The position numbers were made by a program, and so were the translations under genes. 39,955 nucleotides of DNA from positions 1 to 39,955 of the forward strand of contig JAFTEL010000178.1 in assembly GCA_017453685.1 (NCBI GenBank). Direction: 5' to 3'. Below, in pieces: positions 22,106 to 39,955 of the stretch (positions are counted from its first letter, which is position 1; the number at the start of each line of letters is the position of its first letter). The DNA is from Clostridia bacterium (GTDB lineage: Bacteria > Bacillota > Clostridia > Oscillospirales > Acutalibacteraceae). The notes beneath the pieces were generated by a model that saw only the letters and a program-made list of their open reading frames with translations, had not been told where the DNA came from and made no database searches.

Positions 22106-22181
22106 GCTGGTGTAGCTCAGTTGGTAGAGCAGCTGATTTGTAATCAGCAGGTCGGGGGTTCGAGTCCGTCCACCAGCTCCA
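22106..22181 (+). tRNA. tRNA-Thr (anticodon TGT)
   Basis: Cloverleaf read by eye: acceptor GCTGGTG pairs with CACCAGC, the D-loop holds GTTGGTAGAGC, anticodon stem GCTGA/TCAGC encloses loop TTTGTAA with anticodon TGT, and the T-arm contains GGTTCGAGTCC. The CCA end is encoded (22179-22181). Confidence 0.95.
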
Positions 22182-22192
22182 TTTTTATATCC

Positions 22193-22277
22193 GGGAGAGT
22201 TCCCGAGCGGCCAAAGGGAACAGACTGTAAATCTGTCGGCGATGCCTTCGGTGGTTCGAATCCACCCTCTCCCACCA
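22193..22277 (+). tRNA. tRNA-Tyr (anticodon GTA)
   Basis: Acceptor GGGAGAG pairs with CTCTCCC, anticodon stem ACAGA/TCTGT encloses CTGTAAA with anticodon GTA, a long variable arm (class II) follows, and the T-arm has GGTTCGAATCC. The CCA is encoded. It lies 11 bases after tRNA-Thr in the same transcript. Confidence 0.95.
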
Positions 22278-36314: not shown

Positions 36315-37151
36315 ATGGGTATGCTTTACGTGGTCGGTACGCCGATCGGAAATCTGGGCGATCTGTCCCCCCGCGCCATCGAAGCGCTGAACGGCTGCGA
36401 TTTTATCGCGGCGGAAGACACGCGCGTCACCATGAAGCTCCTCAACCATTTCGGCATCAGAAAGCCGCTGGTCAGCTATTTTGAACACAACAAGCTCGAA
36501 CGCGGCGAACAAATCTGCGCGCGTCTGGCGGCCGGCGAGACCGCCTGCCTCGTCACCGACGCGGGCATGCCGGCAGTGTCCGACCCGGGCGAAGATCTGG
36601 TGCGGCTGTGCCATGAAAACGGTCTGCCGGTCACGGTGGTGCCGGGTCCCTGCGCCTTTGTCAGCGCGCTGGCGCTTTCGGGGCTGCCCGCAAAACGGTT
36701 CTGCTTCGAGGGCTTTTTGAGCGTGAATAAAGTCAGCCGCCGCGAACATCTGGCGCAGCTGAAAAACGAGCCGCGCACGATGTGTTTTTATGAAGCGCCG
36801 CACAAGCTCGCCAACACGCTGAAAGATATGCTGGAAGCGTTCGGCGACCGCCCGATCGCCCTTGTGCGCGAGATCACGAAGATACACGAAGAAGTGATAC
36901 ACACCACGCTGGCGCAGGCAGCCGACACCTATGCCGACAATTCGCTCAAGGGCGAGATCGTGCTGATCGTGGCGGGCGCCGCCGAAGAGCAGGAAGAAAC
37001 GCTCACCCTTGCAGACGCGGTGGCACAGGCGAAGCGGCTGATGGAAAAGGGCGTGAGCATCAGCGAAGCCGCCAAGCTCGCCGCCAAAGCGAGCCGATTC
37101 AAAAAGGGAGAAATCTACAAAGAGCTGTTGGAGGAAGAAACCGATGCTTGA
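36315..37151 (+). CDS. rsmI: 16S rRNA (cytidine(1402)-2'-O)-methyltransferase RsmI
   Basis: This 278-residue protein has the full tetrapyrrole-methylase fold of RsmI. Signatures are LYVVGTPIGNLGDLSPRAIEAL, AAEDTRVT, VTDAGMPAVSDPG and VVPGPCAFVSALALSGLP, and the C-terminal part contains LVREITKIHEE and the helical KLAAKASRFKKGEIYKEL. It 2'-O-methylates C1402 in the decoding centre of 16S rRNA. AAGGGA lies four bases before the ATG. The last codons overlap the next gene by eight bases. Confidence 0.95.
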   Translation: MGMLYVVGTPIGNLGDLSPRAIEALNGCDFIAAEDTRVTMKLLNHFGIRKPLVSYFEHNKLERGEQICARLAAGETACLVTDAGMPAVSDPGEDLVRLCHENGLPVTVVPGPCAFVSALALSGLPAKRFCFEGFLSVNKVSRREHLAQLKNEPRTMCFYEAPHKLANTLKDMLEAFGDRPIALVREITKIHEEVIHTTLAQAADTYADNSLKGEIVLIVAGAAEEQEETLTLADAVAQAKRLMEKGVSISEAAKLAAKASRFKKGEIYKELLEEETDA

Positions 37152-37767
37152 AAATATGAAAGAATACTGGTATTTGTATCTGATCTTATTTGCGTTGATC
37201 GTGCTGACAATCTTTGTAATAAAAAAAGCGGCGGAAGCCTCAAAACGCACCCACGGGCGCAATCAGGCGCTGCTGGCGAAAGCCAAACGGGAAAAGGAAC
37301 TGCGTGACGCATACGCGAACCTGACCGAAGAGGTCATTGCCGCGGCGCCGGCCGACGCGCTATTTGAAGGCGTTGCACTGATTCTGGAAAATCAATGTCA
37401 AAAAGCGGTCAGTTCCACTGCGTTTTATCAGGGCTTGACCCGACCGCAGCAGTTGATTTACGCGGTTTATTACCTGCTGACCGATGCAAAGGAAGCGACA
37501 CTTTCCGCGTTTTTCCGCCGCAGCGCGCAGCCGCTCACGGGCGACGCCGCCGAAGCTGCCCAAGCCATGTTCGACCCCGACGCCGCCGAAACGGTCAAAT
37601 CGATGTTTGACTGTTTTGATGAAAACAACGAAAGCGCGTCCGTGACTCCCGAGGTTCTTGACGAACTGGACGGGAGATTCGCCGCACGGCTGGCGCAGGA
37701 CAACCTCTATGTTTCCTGTGGGGAATATATCAAAAAAAATTCCGCATTTTTCTGCAATAACCGTTGA
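37144..37767 (+). CDS. Membrane-anchored protein of unknown function
   Basis: This 207-residue protein has one N-terminal hydrophobic helix (about 7-27, YWYLYLILFALIVLTIFVI), a basic stretch (KKAAEASKRTHGRN) and a mainly helical cytoplasmic domain (about 45-207). Its start overlaps rsmI by eight bases and GAGGAAG lies upstream, so it is co-translated with rsmI. I recognise no family. The stop codon lies within the -35 box of the next promoter. Confidence 0.75.
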   Translation: MLENMKEYWYLYLILFALIVLTIFVIKKAAEASKRTHGRNQALLAKAKREKELRDAYANLTEEVIAAAPADALFEGVALILENQCQKAVSSTAFYQGLTRPQQLIYAVYYLLTDAKEATLSAFFRRSAQPLTGDAAEAAQAMFDPDAAETVKSMFDCFDENNESASVTPEVLDELDGRFAARLAQDNLYVSCGEYIKKNSAFFCNNR

Positions 37768-37792
37768 CAGCACCGAAAAATGGTGCTATGAT
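37764..37792 (+). promoter_or_regulatory. Consensus promoter with a perfect dyad in its spacer (candidate operator)
   Basis: Perfect TTGACA (37764-37769), 17-base spacer, TATGAT (37787-37792). The spacer is a perfect inverted repeat, AGCACC-N7-GGTGCT (37769-37787), touching both boxes. A dimeric repressor bound there would block RNA polymerase. The downstream gene encodes an XRE helix-turn-helix domain, so autoregulation is a natural guess. Confidence 0.65.
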
Positions 37793-37821
37793 GACTCCAA
37801 TCTTGACAGGAGGAACGACAC

Positions 37822-37908
37822 GTGACTGCTTTTTTCAACATCGCCATTATTATCGGCATTATCATTACCATTGATAATGTCTTAGTGCGTTGTGCTGAAA
37901 AAGCCTGA
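37822..37908 (+). CDS. 28-codon isoleucine-rich leader peptide (or small membrane peptide)
   Basis: This short ORF starts with GTG at 37822, six to seven bases after AGGAGG, and ends with TGA at 37906-37908. The peptide starts MTAFFN, continues IAIIIGIIITID and ends NVLVRCAEKA. Eight of the eleven codons from 37840 to 37872 are Ile. Together with the terminator hairpin 24 bases later this has the form of an amino-acid-responsive attenuator leader. It could also be a one-helix membrane peptide; the two readings are not exclusive. Confidence 0.6.
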   Translation: MTAFFNIAIIIGIIITIDNVLVRCAEKA

Positions 37909-37966
37909 GCGTTCCGAAAAGAACCGCTATCAAGCCTTGCAGCATCTACGCTGCAAGGCTTTTCTT
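37887..37966 (+). terminator. Attenuator: terminator hairpin with a competing antiterminator pairing
   Basis: The terminator has a perfect 11-bp stem, AGCCTTGCAGC (37933-37943) with GCTGCAAGGCT (37950-37960), a 6-base loop and a T-rich tail. An alternative pairing joins GCGT-tg-TGCTG (37887-37897, inside the leader ORF) to CAGCA-tct-ACGC (37940-37951), which would break the terminator stem. A small hairpin (37908-37928) lies between. No promoter fits between the terminator and the next ATG, so that gene needs read-through. Confidence 0.6.
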
Positions 37967-37983
37967 ATTGAGGAGGTAACAAA

Positions 37984-39955
37984 ATGAGCACGAATTCAGA
38001 ACTCCAGAGCATCGCCGGACGCATCCGCGAATTGAGAACCATCATGGGGCTGACCCCCGCGCAGATGGCGGAAATTACGGGAGTGAGCCAGCGGGAGTAT
38101 ATTGAAAGCGAAAACGGCTACCGCGATATGTCCTTCACCTTTTTGCATAAGTGCGCCACCGCGTTCAAAACCGACCTGTCGGCGCTGGTCACCGGCGAAA
38201 TGCCCAAGCTTTCCAAATACACGCTCCTGCGCAACGGCGAGGGCATGCCCATCCGCCGCAAGGAAGGCTTTGAATACCAGCACATGGCGCCGCTGTTCAA
38301 GGACCGCCTGATCGACCCGTTTCTGGTCACCGCCAAATACAGCGAAAAACTCGAAAACGCGCCTATCGCCTGCACCCAGCACGACGGGCAGGAATTTGAA
38401 TACATCATCAGCGGGCGGCTGAAGGTGCAGATCGACGAACATATCGAGATTCTCGAACCAGGCGACAAAATGCTGCTCAACTCCTCCCTGCCCCACGGCA
38501 TGGTCGCCATCGACGGCGAAAACTGCCAGTTCATCAGCGTGGTCGTCAAGGGCAGCGGCTCTTCCGCGACCCTGCCGAATCTGCCGGAAATGAGCGAAAG
38601 CGCCGACGTGGGCAACAACGAGCTGCTGTATAAGCGTTACGTCAATGAAACCGTGAATGAAAACGGGCTGCTGACCGATATTTCCTTCAACGTGCCCGAA
38701 AACTTCAACTTCGCTTTTGACGTGGTCGACGAGCTGGGGCGCACCAAGCCCGACAAGGTCGCCATGGTCTGGCTCTCCAACAAAAAAGAAAAGCGCGTTT
38801 TCACCTTCCGCGACATCTCCGTGCTTTCCTCTCAGGCCGCCAATTACCTCAAGTCACTTGGCATCAAGCGCGGCGACCGCGTGGTGCTCGTACTCAAGCG
38901 CCACTGGCAGTTCTGGGTCGCCATCAACGCGCTGCATAAGATCGGCGCCATTGTTATCCCCGCCACCAACCAGCTCACCGCCAAGGACTTTTCCTACCGC
39001 TTCAACGCCGCCGGTGTGCGCGCCGTGATCGCCACGAGCGACGGCGAAGTGCGCGACGCCATCGACGATGCGCATAAGGACAGCCCGACGCTGGAATTCA
39101 AGCTGTGCGTCAACGGAACGCGTGAGGGCTGGCTGAACTTCGACGAGGGCACAGCCGCCGCCTCGAGCGTATTCCCCCGCCCGACCGACCACAATGTGCG
39201 CGACAAGATGATCATGTATTTCACCTCCGGCACGACCGGTTATCCGAAGATCGCCGCGCACAGCTTCGCCTACGCCATCGGTCATATCGTTACCGCCCGC
39301 TACTGGCACAATGTTGACCCCGACGGACTGCATTTCACCATTTCCGACACCGGCTGGGGCAAGGCGGTCTGGGGCAAGCTCTACGGTCAATGGCTGTGCG
39401 AAGCGGCGGTATTCACCTATGACTTCGACCGTTTCCACGCCTCCGAAATTCTGCCGATGTTCCATGATTACAACATCACGACTTTCTGCGCACCGCCGAC
39501 CATGTACCGCTTCTTCATCAAGGAAGACCTTTCCAAATACGATTTCAGCAGCGTCAAGCACGCGACCACGGCGGGTGAAGCGCTCAACGAAGAGGTGTAT
39601 GAGCAGTTCAAGAACGCGACCGGACTGATGATCCACGAGGGGTTCGGTCAGACCGAGACCACGCTGACCGTCGCCAACCTCATCGGCGCCGAGATCAGAC
39701 CCGGCTCCATGGGCAAGCCCACGCCGCAGTTCGACATCAAGCTCATTAACAGCGACGGCGAAGAAACCAAGGTGGGCGAGGTCGGTGAGATCTGCCTGAG
39801 CACCAAAAACGGCGTCCCCTACGGCATGTTCATCGGCTACTATCTCGACGATGAAAAGACGACCGAGGCGTGGTACGATGACCTGTATCACACCGGCGAC
39901 ATGGCATGGCGTGACGAGGACGGCTACCTGTGGTACTTCGGCCGCACGGACGATC
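37984..39955 (+). CDS. XRE helix-turn-helix - cupin - AMP-binding acyl-CoA ligase fusion (3' end outside window)
   Basis: The reading frame stays open from ATG 37984 (GAGGAGG upstream) to the window edge, at least 657 residues. Residues about 9-66 form an XRE-type helix-turn-helix (GRIRELRTIMGLTPAQMAEI). Residues about 105-190 form a cupin (HDGQEFEYIISG near 132 and PGDKMLLNSSLPHG). From about 230 on it is an ANL-superfamily adenylating enzyme with the P-loop YFTSGTTGYPK (Thr414 to Gly419), FGQTETT and YHTGDMAWRDEDGYLWYFGR. The last part resembles acetyl-CoA or medium-chain acyl-CoA synthetases, which make acyl-AMP and then acyl-CoA. The C-terminal subdomain with the catalytic Lys lies beyond the edge. 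The fusion suggests an enzyme that also binds DNA. Confidence 0.85.
   Translation, partial: MSTNSELQSIAGRIRELRTIMGLTPAQMAEITGVSQREYIESENGYRDMSFTFLHKCATAFKTDLSALVTGEMPKLSKYTLLRNGEGMPIRRKEGFEYQHMAPLFKDRLIDPFLVTAKYSEKLENAPIACTQHDGQEFEYIISGRLKVQIDEHIEILEPGDKMLLNSSLPHGMVAIDGENCQFISVVVKGSGSSATLPNLPEMSESADVGNNELLYKRYVNETVNENGLLTDISFNVPENFNFAFDVVDELGRTKPDKVAMVWLSNKKEKRVFTFRDISVLSSQAANYLKSLGIKRGDRVVLVLKRHWQFWVAINALHKIGAIVIPATNQLTAKDFSYRFNAAGVRAVIATSDGEVRDAIDDAHKDSPTLEFKLCVNGTREGWLNFDEGTAAASSVFPRPTDHNVRDKMIMYFTSGTTGYPKIAAHSFAYAIGHIVTARYWHNVDPDGLHFTISDTGWGKAVWGKLYGQWLCEAAVFTYDFDRFHASEILPMFHDYNITTFCAPPTMYRFFIKEDLSKYDFSSVKHATTAGEALNEEVYEQFKNATGLMIHEGFGQTETTLTVANLIGAEIRPGSMGKPTPQFDIKLINSDGEETKVGEVGEICLSTKNGVPYGMFIGYYLDDEKTTEAWYDDLYHTGDMAWRDEDGYLWYFGRTDD

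Follow-up and report, generated by a model that had tools for sequence, protein, structure and literature searches.

In Escherichia coli and Salmonella, ilv and leu are controlled by leader-peptide attenuators, and the Firmicutes are generally known for T-boxes. The passages of PMC5794164 on branched-chain amino acid leaders name those of E. coli and Salmonella, add that of Staphylococcus aureus, and include predicted examples from Lactococcus, Corynebacterium and Streptococcus; the Firmicutes are thus represented by few cases, in S. aureus, Lactococcus and Streptococcus. PMC1262725, in its relevant part, treats Actinobacteria and ascribes T-boxes to the aminoacyl-tRNA synthetase genes of Firmicutes. 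A different leader, uORFC-13-1 ahead of aroF in Acholeplasma, is described in the corresponding part of PMC8632094 from Acholeplasma and environmental sequences only.

The locus analysed here lies near the end of a 39,955-base stretch of DNA (the window) from a gut bacterium. It appears that this bacterium turns on an acyl-CoA ligase, which salvages a branched-chain acid for isoleucine synthesis, only through ribosome stalling at isoleucine codons. As with the ilv/leu attenuators of E. coli and Salmonella, and that of S. aureus outlined in PMC5794164, the locus has a short ORF in which the regulated amino acid is abundant, together with antiterminator and terminator hairpins. However, its target is an XRE-cupin acyl-CoA ligase, its control codons are almost purely isoleucine, and the relatives identified occur in Oscillospiraceae-like Clostridia, an order taken to be Oscillospirales from its named members. 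It would share with T-box leaders (RF00230) the sensing of tRNA-Ile charging upstream of orthologous ligases, but T-boxes bind tRNA directly, whereas the window has a predicted translated leader and no T-box. An Rfam scan of the window gave no T-box match at the gathering score, and a T-box was rejected as the identity of the window leader. The combination of a leader ORF and a terminator before a DAHP synthase gene in uORFC-13-1 is like that of the Phe/Tyr leaders reported below. The mechanism of leader-peptide attenuation is known; the ligase target, the exchange with T-boxes and the leader family look new. Among the titles, abstracts and passages retrieved from an open-access library, none dealt with leaders of this kind in the Clostridia concerned or ahead of an acyl-CoA ligase gene, which is weak evidence of absence since subscription journals lie mostly outside its coverage.

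Anatomy and predicted switching of the leader

The leader is preceded on the plus strand by a promoter matching 11 of 12 consensus bases (TTGACA at 37764-37769, a 17-nt spacer and TATGAT at 37787-37792, with TG before the -10 element), from which transcription would start near 37799. The same promoter was found for the leaders of genomes G008 and G009, and a TTGACA-like site was seen by eye at the equivalent place in locus L165. A ribosome site, AGGAGG (37808-37813, plus strand), lies eight bases ahead of the GTG start of the leader ORF (37822-37908, plus strand), which comprises 28 codons, ends in TGA at 37906-37908 and encodes the peptide MTAFFNIAIIIGIIITIDNVLVRCAEKA. Eight of the 11 codons from 7 to 17 (37840-37872, plus strand) specify isoleucine. 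No other place in a six-frame scan of the 39,955 bases reaches eight isoleucines in 11 codons, the maximum elsewhere being six, and when the bases of the leader ORF were shuffled 20,000 times no shuffle matched it. The first-pass annotation, made from the letters alone, had described this GTG ORF, its good ribosome site and its isoleucine run correctly; the promoter and a hairpin spanning most of the ORF were both absent from it.

The order of the hairpins is the classical one of a 1:2 protector, a 2:3 antiterminator and a 3:4 terminator, all on the plus strand. Segment 1, the 5' arm of the protector hairpin (37828-37844), pairs with segment 2, its 3' arm (37887-37904), and encloses an inner hairpin over the isoleucine codons with arms at 37855-37864 and 37872-37881. 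The first part of segment 2 (37887-37897) is also the 5' arm of the antiterminator, whose 3' arm, segment 3 (37940-37951), lies within the terminator 5' arm, its loop and the first bases of its 3' arm. This 2:3 pairing, which had been claimed earlier, comprises 10 pairs with one small internal loop and a predicted energy of -12.0 kcal/mol. In the intrinsic terminator (37932-37967), bases 37932-37943 pair with 37950-37961, followed by the T-rich tail TTCTTATT; the terminator and tail had been recognised previously, but the stem (37932-37961, loop of 6) is of 12 bp rather than the 11 bp given. The folding energies were -24.0 kcal/mol for 1:2, -20.4 for the region spanning segments 2 and 3, and -22.0 for 3:4, and the fold of the leader as a whole (37797-37975) had a z-score of -5.0, with none of 200 shuffles equally stable.

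The terminator ends just ahead of the ribosome site (AGGAGG, 37971-37976, plus strand) of a gene encoding a fusion of an XRE-HTH domain, a cupin and an AMP-binding acyl-CoA ligase (37984-39955, plus strand), the 3' part of which is cut by the contig end. The gene upstream of the leader is DMP19-like (37144-37767). Elsewhere in the window, two tRNA genes are present on the plus strand at 22106-22274.

Folding of the window leader was simulated with a ribosome footprint of 31 blocked bases and a transcript cut short of segment 4, at 37953. All 10 antiterminator pairs formed with the A site at codon 2, 7, 9, 10, 11, 13, 14, 15, 17 or 18, six formed at codon 20, and none at codons 24, 26, 28 or 29 or without a ribosome. 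In these folds a stall on the isoleucine codons thus promotes read-through, and termination is promoted instead when the ribosome is near the stop codon or absent. The attenuation logic proposed by the first-pass annotation is therefore supported in silico, the antiterminator forming only when the ribosome occupied one of the tested codons from 2 to 20. The full-length leader took the terminator fold at all ribosome positions tested in silico, so the choice of read-through must be kinetic and made during transcription, as it is in known attenuators.

In the cell, ample isoleucine would allow the ribosome to reach the stop codon and cover the first part of segment 2, the terminator would form, and transcription would stop ahead of the ligase gene. 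With isoleucine scarce, the ribosome would stall in codons 7-17 and block the protector hairpin, segment 2 would take segment 3 before segment 4 exists, and RNA polymerase would continue. If translation were absent, the protector hairpin would occupy segment 2 and the terminator would again form. The ligase is proposed to activate 2-methylbutyrate as its thioester, 2-methylbutyryl-CoA, and a 2-ketoacid:ferredoxin oxidoreductase would then carboxylate this thioester, giving the 2-oxoacid of isoleucine; an isoleucine shortage would in this way switch on isoleucine supply from the acid. We give this whole reading, a ribosome-mediated attenuator that senses charged tRNA-Ile ahead of a ligase supplying isoleucine, a probability of roughly 0.84.

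Conservation of the leader and T-boxes on orthologous ligases

Three further genomes, G008, G009 and L165 (JAJUHS010000021.1, Clostridiales bacterium bin70), have a homologue of the leader ahead of their orthologous ligase. The ligase of the congener G009, which is full length at 759 aa, is 98% identical to that of the window, and that of L165 is 64% identical; the contig of G008, likewise a congener, contains only the first 36 ligase residues, all identical to those of the window. The leader peptides of G008, G009 and L165 are MTALFSIAIIIIGIIIRIDNVLVRYAEKA, MALVFSIAIIIISSIIITIDNASLRCAETA and MIHFVNNAIIIIISIIIIIIDNNADLRCAEKRVDIA, respectively. Isoleucine occurs 8, 9, 9 and 13 times per leader (own first), with valine and leucine constant at 1-2 each. 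The comparison of homologous leaders that had been suggested as a check thus showed retention of isoleucine codons and not of hydrophobicity alone, among the four ligase-fusion leaders known, three of which come from one genus.

All four leaders keep the ORF-spanning hairpin, the antiterminator and the terminator. Protector and terminator pairing was retained in 96.6% of 148 pair cells of the four-leader alignment, and seven of these pairs had changed on both sides (shuffle mean 2.5, with 1 of 500 shuffles reaching 7; slid versions at most 1). Antiterminator pairing was retained in 39/40 cells, compared with 3-64% for slid versions. The compensating changes sought as a further check were accordingly seen in the protector and terminator of these close leaders, but not in the antiterminator, which had no double change among the four.

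Synonymous recodings as stable as the native ORF hairpin numbered 42, 16, 2 and 45 per 1000 for the four leaders, and equally stable permutations of synonymous codons 3, 47, 17 and 68; the hairpin is thus more stable than its recodings, but only moderately. For the 2:3 duplex, the corresponding counts per 2000 in our own genome, G008, G009 and L165 were 2, 0, 1 and 80 for synonymous recodings and 28, 20, 18 and 14 for codon permutations. It is unlikely that the structure is merely a side effect of codon choice.

The orthologous ligases of other genomes are preceded by T-boxes. Six congeners (G001, G002, G003, G005, G006 and G007) each carry tandem ligases of 55-57% identity, one following an Ile (ATC) and one a Val (GTA) T-box. 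On the opposite strand, five of the six have a third T-box, with a CTC (Leu) specifier; in G007 the script gave no match for it. In G003 (L042:5992-10250), this Leu T-box lies ahead of an operon comprising a homologue of leuA and the gene for an 842-aa protein, part of which is an acyl-CoA ligase; the operon is divergent from the ligases with Ile and Val T-boxes; in G001, G002, G005 and G006 the CTC T-box is at the equivalent place, the genes having been profiled in G003 alone. Genes for VorB and for the beta and gamma subunits of a 2-oxoacid oxidoreductase are present downstream of the tandem ligases of G003. The nearest outgroup genus (G022, G152 and G234; 63%) also has Ile T-boxes.

Across 176 regions upstream of ligases (96 from genus and family searches and 80 from GTDB r220 contigs, near-duplicate genomes included), the script read a T-box specifier in 149, comprising 98 ATC (Ile), 51 GTA (Val) and no other, with secondary specifier matches in 12 regions set aside by eye. 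Nine of the 27 regions without a script reading had a specifier by eye or in another script reading, which was Ile in L051-L053, L087, L128, L133 and L175 and Val in L085 and L234. The remainder were L109, with a Val specifier ahead of a large insertion, L165, which has the leader, and 16 regions that were truncated or had no T-box. These specifiers indicate that the ligase family is controlled by the charging of tRNA-Ile or tRNA-Val.

In a tree of 177 ligases labelled by a more restricted specifier script than that used for the 149 readings, one that accepted ATC or GTA alone, all 53 Val-labelled rows fell within one clade of 58 rows (three unread and two without) with a support of 99. The leader-bearing rows (own, G009 and L165) formed one clade with a support of 96 inside a 13-row group that also included five Ile-T-box rows and five with neither sensor. 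The placement assigns the leader to the Ile lineage. The presence of a leader-peptide attenuator and a T-box before orthologous genes, both for the same amino acid, represents a natural experiment in RNA-sensor replacement. The type of sensor upstream also suggests the substrate, namely 2-methylbutyrate for Ile-type and isobutyrate for Val-type ligases, and so points to genes that are candidates for making amino acids out of branched-chain acids, and to the logic of their regulation.

The ligases of three records named Lentisphaerae or Lentisphaeria (L170, L177 and L194) lie near the leader-bearing and Ile-T-box ligases in the tree, and no T-box or leader was seen for these three; inter-phylum transfer or a binning error is possible. 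In our own genome, locus L139 (G000:C172:21019-21260, minus strand) contains a T-box scoring 104.8 bits upstream of an AMP-binding ligase that carries an AMP-binding_C_2 domain and that we take to be phenylacetate-CoA-ligase-like. Its specifier, read by eye, is TGG (Trp), which suggests a putative salvage of indoleacetate to tryptophan.

Identity and probable metabolic role of the ligase

The fusion protein matched HTH_3 and Cupin_2 above the Pfam gathering scores, and the best NCBIfam match of its ligase part was MbcS (NF047394). The full-length G009 orthologue scored 450 bits on this model against a curated cut-off of 850, and the ligase was therefore not assigned to the MbcS family. PMC10026030 describes MbcS as an activator of both 2-methylbutyrate and isobutyrate in the priming of fatty acids; the window ligase differs in its score far under the cut-off, in its additional XRE and cupin domains, and in belonging to a type with Ile or Val sensors upstream. 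According to the relevant passage of PMC7356843, 2-methylbutyrate and isobutyrate are precursors of isoleucine and valine, respectively, in rumen fermentation. The likely role of the ligase, as judged from its sequence and gene context, is the activation of 2-methylbutyrate for isoleucine synthesis by reductive carboxylation.

The first-pass annotation had set the ligase apart from biosynthetic genes, and considered that attenuation would make sense if the enzyme handled branched-chain acids. The latter suggestion agrees with the Ile and Val T-boxes on the orthologues; with the VorB genes and the Leu-T-box leuA operon of G003, these T-boxes indicate that the ligase is itself probably biosynthetic, through acid salvage, contrary to the former.

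The attenuator could respond to isoleucine as described and yet serve lipid synthesis, with 2-methylbutyryl-CoA priming anteiso fatty acids, as for MbcS of S. aureus, instead of feeding isoleucine synthesis. The closest named family has this very function in the cited part of PMC10026030, and a shortage of isoleucine would starve the primer too. However, the G003 ligases adjoin VorB and 2-oxoacid oxidoreductase subunits and face a leuA/ligase operon under a Leu T-box, and ligase and acetolactate synthase (IlvB) tend to exclude each other. On these grounds we regard a lipid-primer role as unlikely, although it retains some weight.

The exclusion was assessed in 398 genomes of the family, with IlvB called by TIGR00118 above its cut-off and on the assumption that the ligase and IlvB searches sampled the same genomes. 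IlvB was present in 41 of 135 genomes with the ligase (E <= 1e-205) compared with 199 of 263 others (Fisher p 4e-18, a statistic that ignores the relatedness of the genomes), which leaves 41 of the 398 with both and 64 with neither. At a looser ligase cut-off (E <= 1e-150), the proportions were 89/188 and 151/210. Such exclusion is expected of alternative routes to the amino acids, and acid salvage and de novo synthesis look like alternatives in this comparison of gene content, with exceptions. No IlvB above the cut-off was found in our own genome, G008, G009, G003 or G004; as our genome is 80.6% complete, its lack of a match is not proof of absence. G004 is also without a close ligase orthologue, and in the congener G001 ligase and synthase occur together.

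No VOR gene was found beside the window-type ligase in G009, where the ligase is followed by a single gene, for a convergent oxidoreductase, with which the contig ends, and none was evident around L165, with ORFs judged by eye. A paralogue of the ligase on contig C167 of our own genome (46%) had no Ile leader upstream by eye. An order-wide protein search (E <= 1e-262) also identified a ligase of 58% at L245 (G467:C50) with two stop codons inside, which is likely a pseudogene; no leader was seen there by eye.

A wider family of leaders in the order

The four leaders were used to build a covariance model, R1, and its search of 394 genomes from the order gave 66 matches at E <= 0.01 in 52 genomes, our own included. 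Two of the matches were in our own genome. Among the 64 in other genomes, 39 were inspected, of which nine were rejected (3/19 loci and 6/20 fetched) and 30 kept; of nine further R1 loci inspected, seven were rejected and two kept (G022 and G755). With the four founders, this gave a set of 36 leaders. No second R1-type leader was found in our own genome, where the other matches were at E 0.004 or worse; the one inspected, on contig C32, was a terminator without such a leader and was rejected. None of the leaders matched an Rfam 15 family when 18 sources were scanned.

Related attenuators occur in other families of the order, and their control codons match the next gene. The genes downstream of the 36 leaders were the ligase fusion (4), an XRE-cupin gene with a separate MbcS-like ligase (3), ilvB (12), leuA (1), ilvE (1), DAHP synthase (11), prephenate dehydrogenase (tyrA; 2), a transporter (1) and one that was unclear. 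These families were profile-checked for L247, L251, L255, L256, L300, L305-L307 and L309 and, among the ilvB cases, for G022 and G755, and the remainder were assigned from N-termini; L287 has no identified gene downstream. Control codons were of the Ile/Val/Leu type before ilvB, leuA and ilvE, Phe/Tyr before DAHP synthase, and Tyr before tyrA. The richer residue class (Ile+Val+Leu or Phe+Tyr+Trp) suited the downstream amino-acid gene in 34 of 34 leaders, an agreement that is partly circular because leaders were also judged by residue class. The narrowest case was L258, with 10 Phe+Tyr and 9 Ile+Val+Leu. Many members have an LRCAE-like peptide end, the codons of which would double as segment 2.

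The antiterminator covariation missing among the four close leaders was seen in this wider set. For 27 non-redundant leaders, the cognate 2:3 duplex had a mean energy of -14.97 kcal/mol compared with -11.75 (sd 0.46) with permuted partners, and none of 20,000 permutations was as low. This covariation was not built in by the model, since R1 has no 2:3 pairing. While 22 of the 27 were at or under 5% relative to shuffles of their own segment 2, the other five (L247, L288, L249, L253 and L289) failed this test, and the cognate partner ranked first of the 27 for only five leaders. The terminator of L250 was missed by the script and set by hand.

We consider it likely that Oscillospirales-type Clostridia possess an undescribed, modular family of attenuators in which a single hairpin architecture is retained and control codons are swapped to suit the gene, which exchanges with T-boxes of the same specificity and which extends to acid-salvage enzymes. 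If so, the sensor reveals the substrate of the enzyme.

The wider set also bears on whether the leader reads isoleucine at all. Any leader-peptide attenuator also reports translation, and the leader might respond to ribosome supply, drugs or temperature in general, with the isoleucine run as hydrophobic filler. This is improbable given the agreement between residue class and gene, partly circular as it is, and the sensing of Ile or Val by T-box on the orthologues. The ORF might instead encode a small membrane peptide, such as a type I toxin, with the hairpin simply its terminator, which would be in keeping with a hydrophobic peptide of 28 residues that has a promoter and a terminator to itself. 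However, residues other than the isoleucine run and the LRCAE-like end vary among the four genomes, the pairings are conserved with compensating changes, and in the leaders of other families Ile is replaced by Phe or Tyr to suit the gene, which makes such a peptide very improbable. Chance, with a spurious small ORF and a terminator belonging to the upstream operon, is barely credible despite the nearness of the upstream gene, since a near-consensus promoter lies between that gene and the terminator and the leader is kept in G008, G009 and L165, the last with a different upstream gene; in our view this conservation already refutes chance.

Beyond the proposed isoleucine-sensing attenuator of the window, several individual loci were noted. 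A scan of viral contigs for the isoleucine-run pattern gave eight matches. At L309:100-560 (G755:C7), tandem leader ORFs, each with a terminator-like hairpin by eye, precede leuA, ilvB and further genes. In L255 (G406:C92:914-1074, minus strand), a Phe-rich leader lies before a gene whose best match, below the cut-off, is an MFS lactate transporter, an apparent case of a transporter under putative Phe attenuation. Two split XRE-cupin/ligase pairs are present in one genome, G429 (L305 and L306), one preceded by an Ile-rich leader (I7 V4) and the other by one containing 5 Ile and 5 Val, an arrangement that recalls, by analogy, the Ile and Val T-box paralogues found elsewhere.
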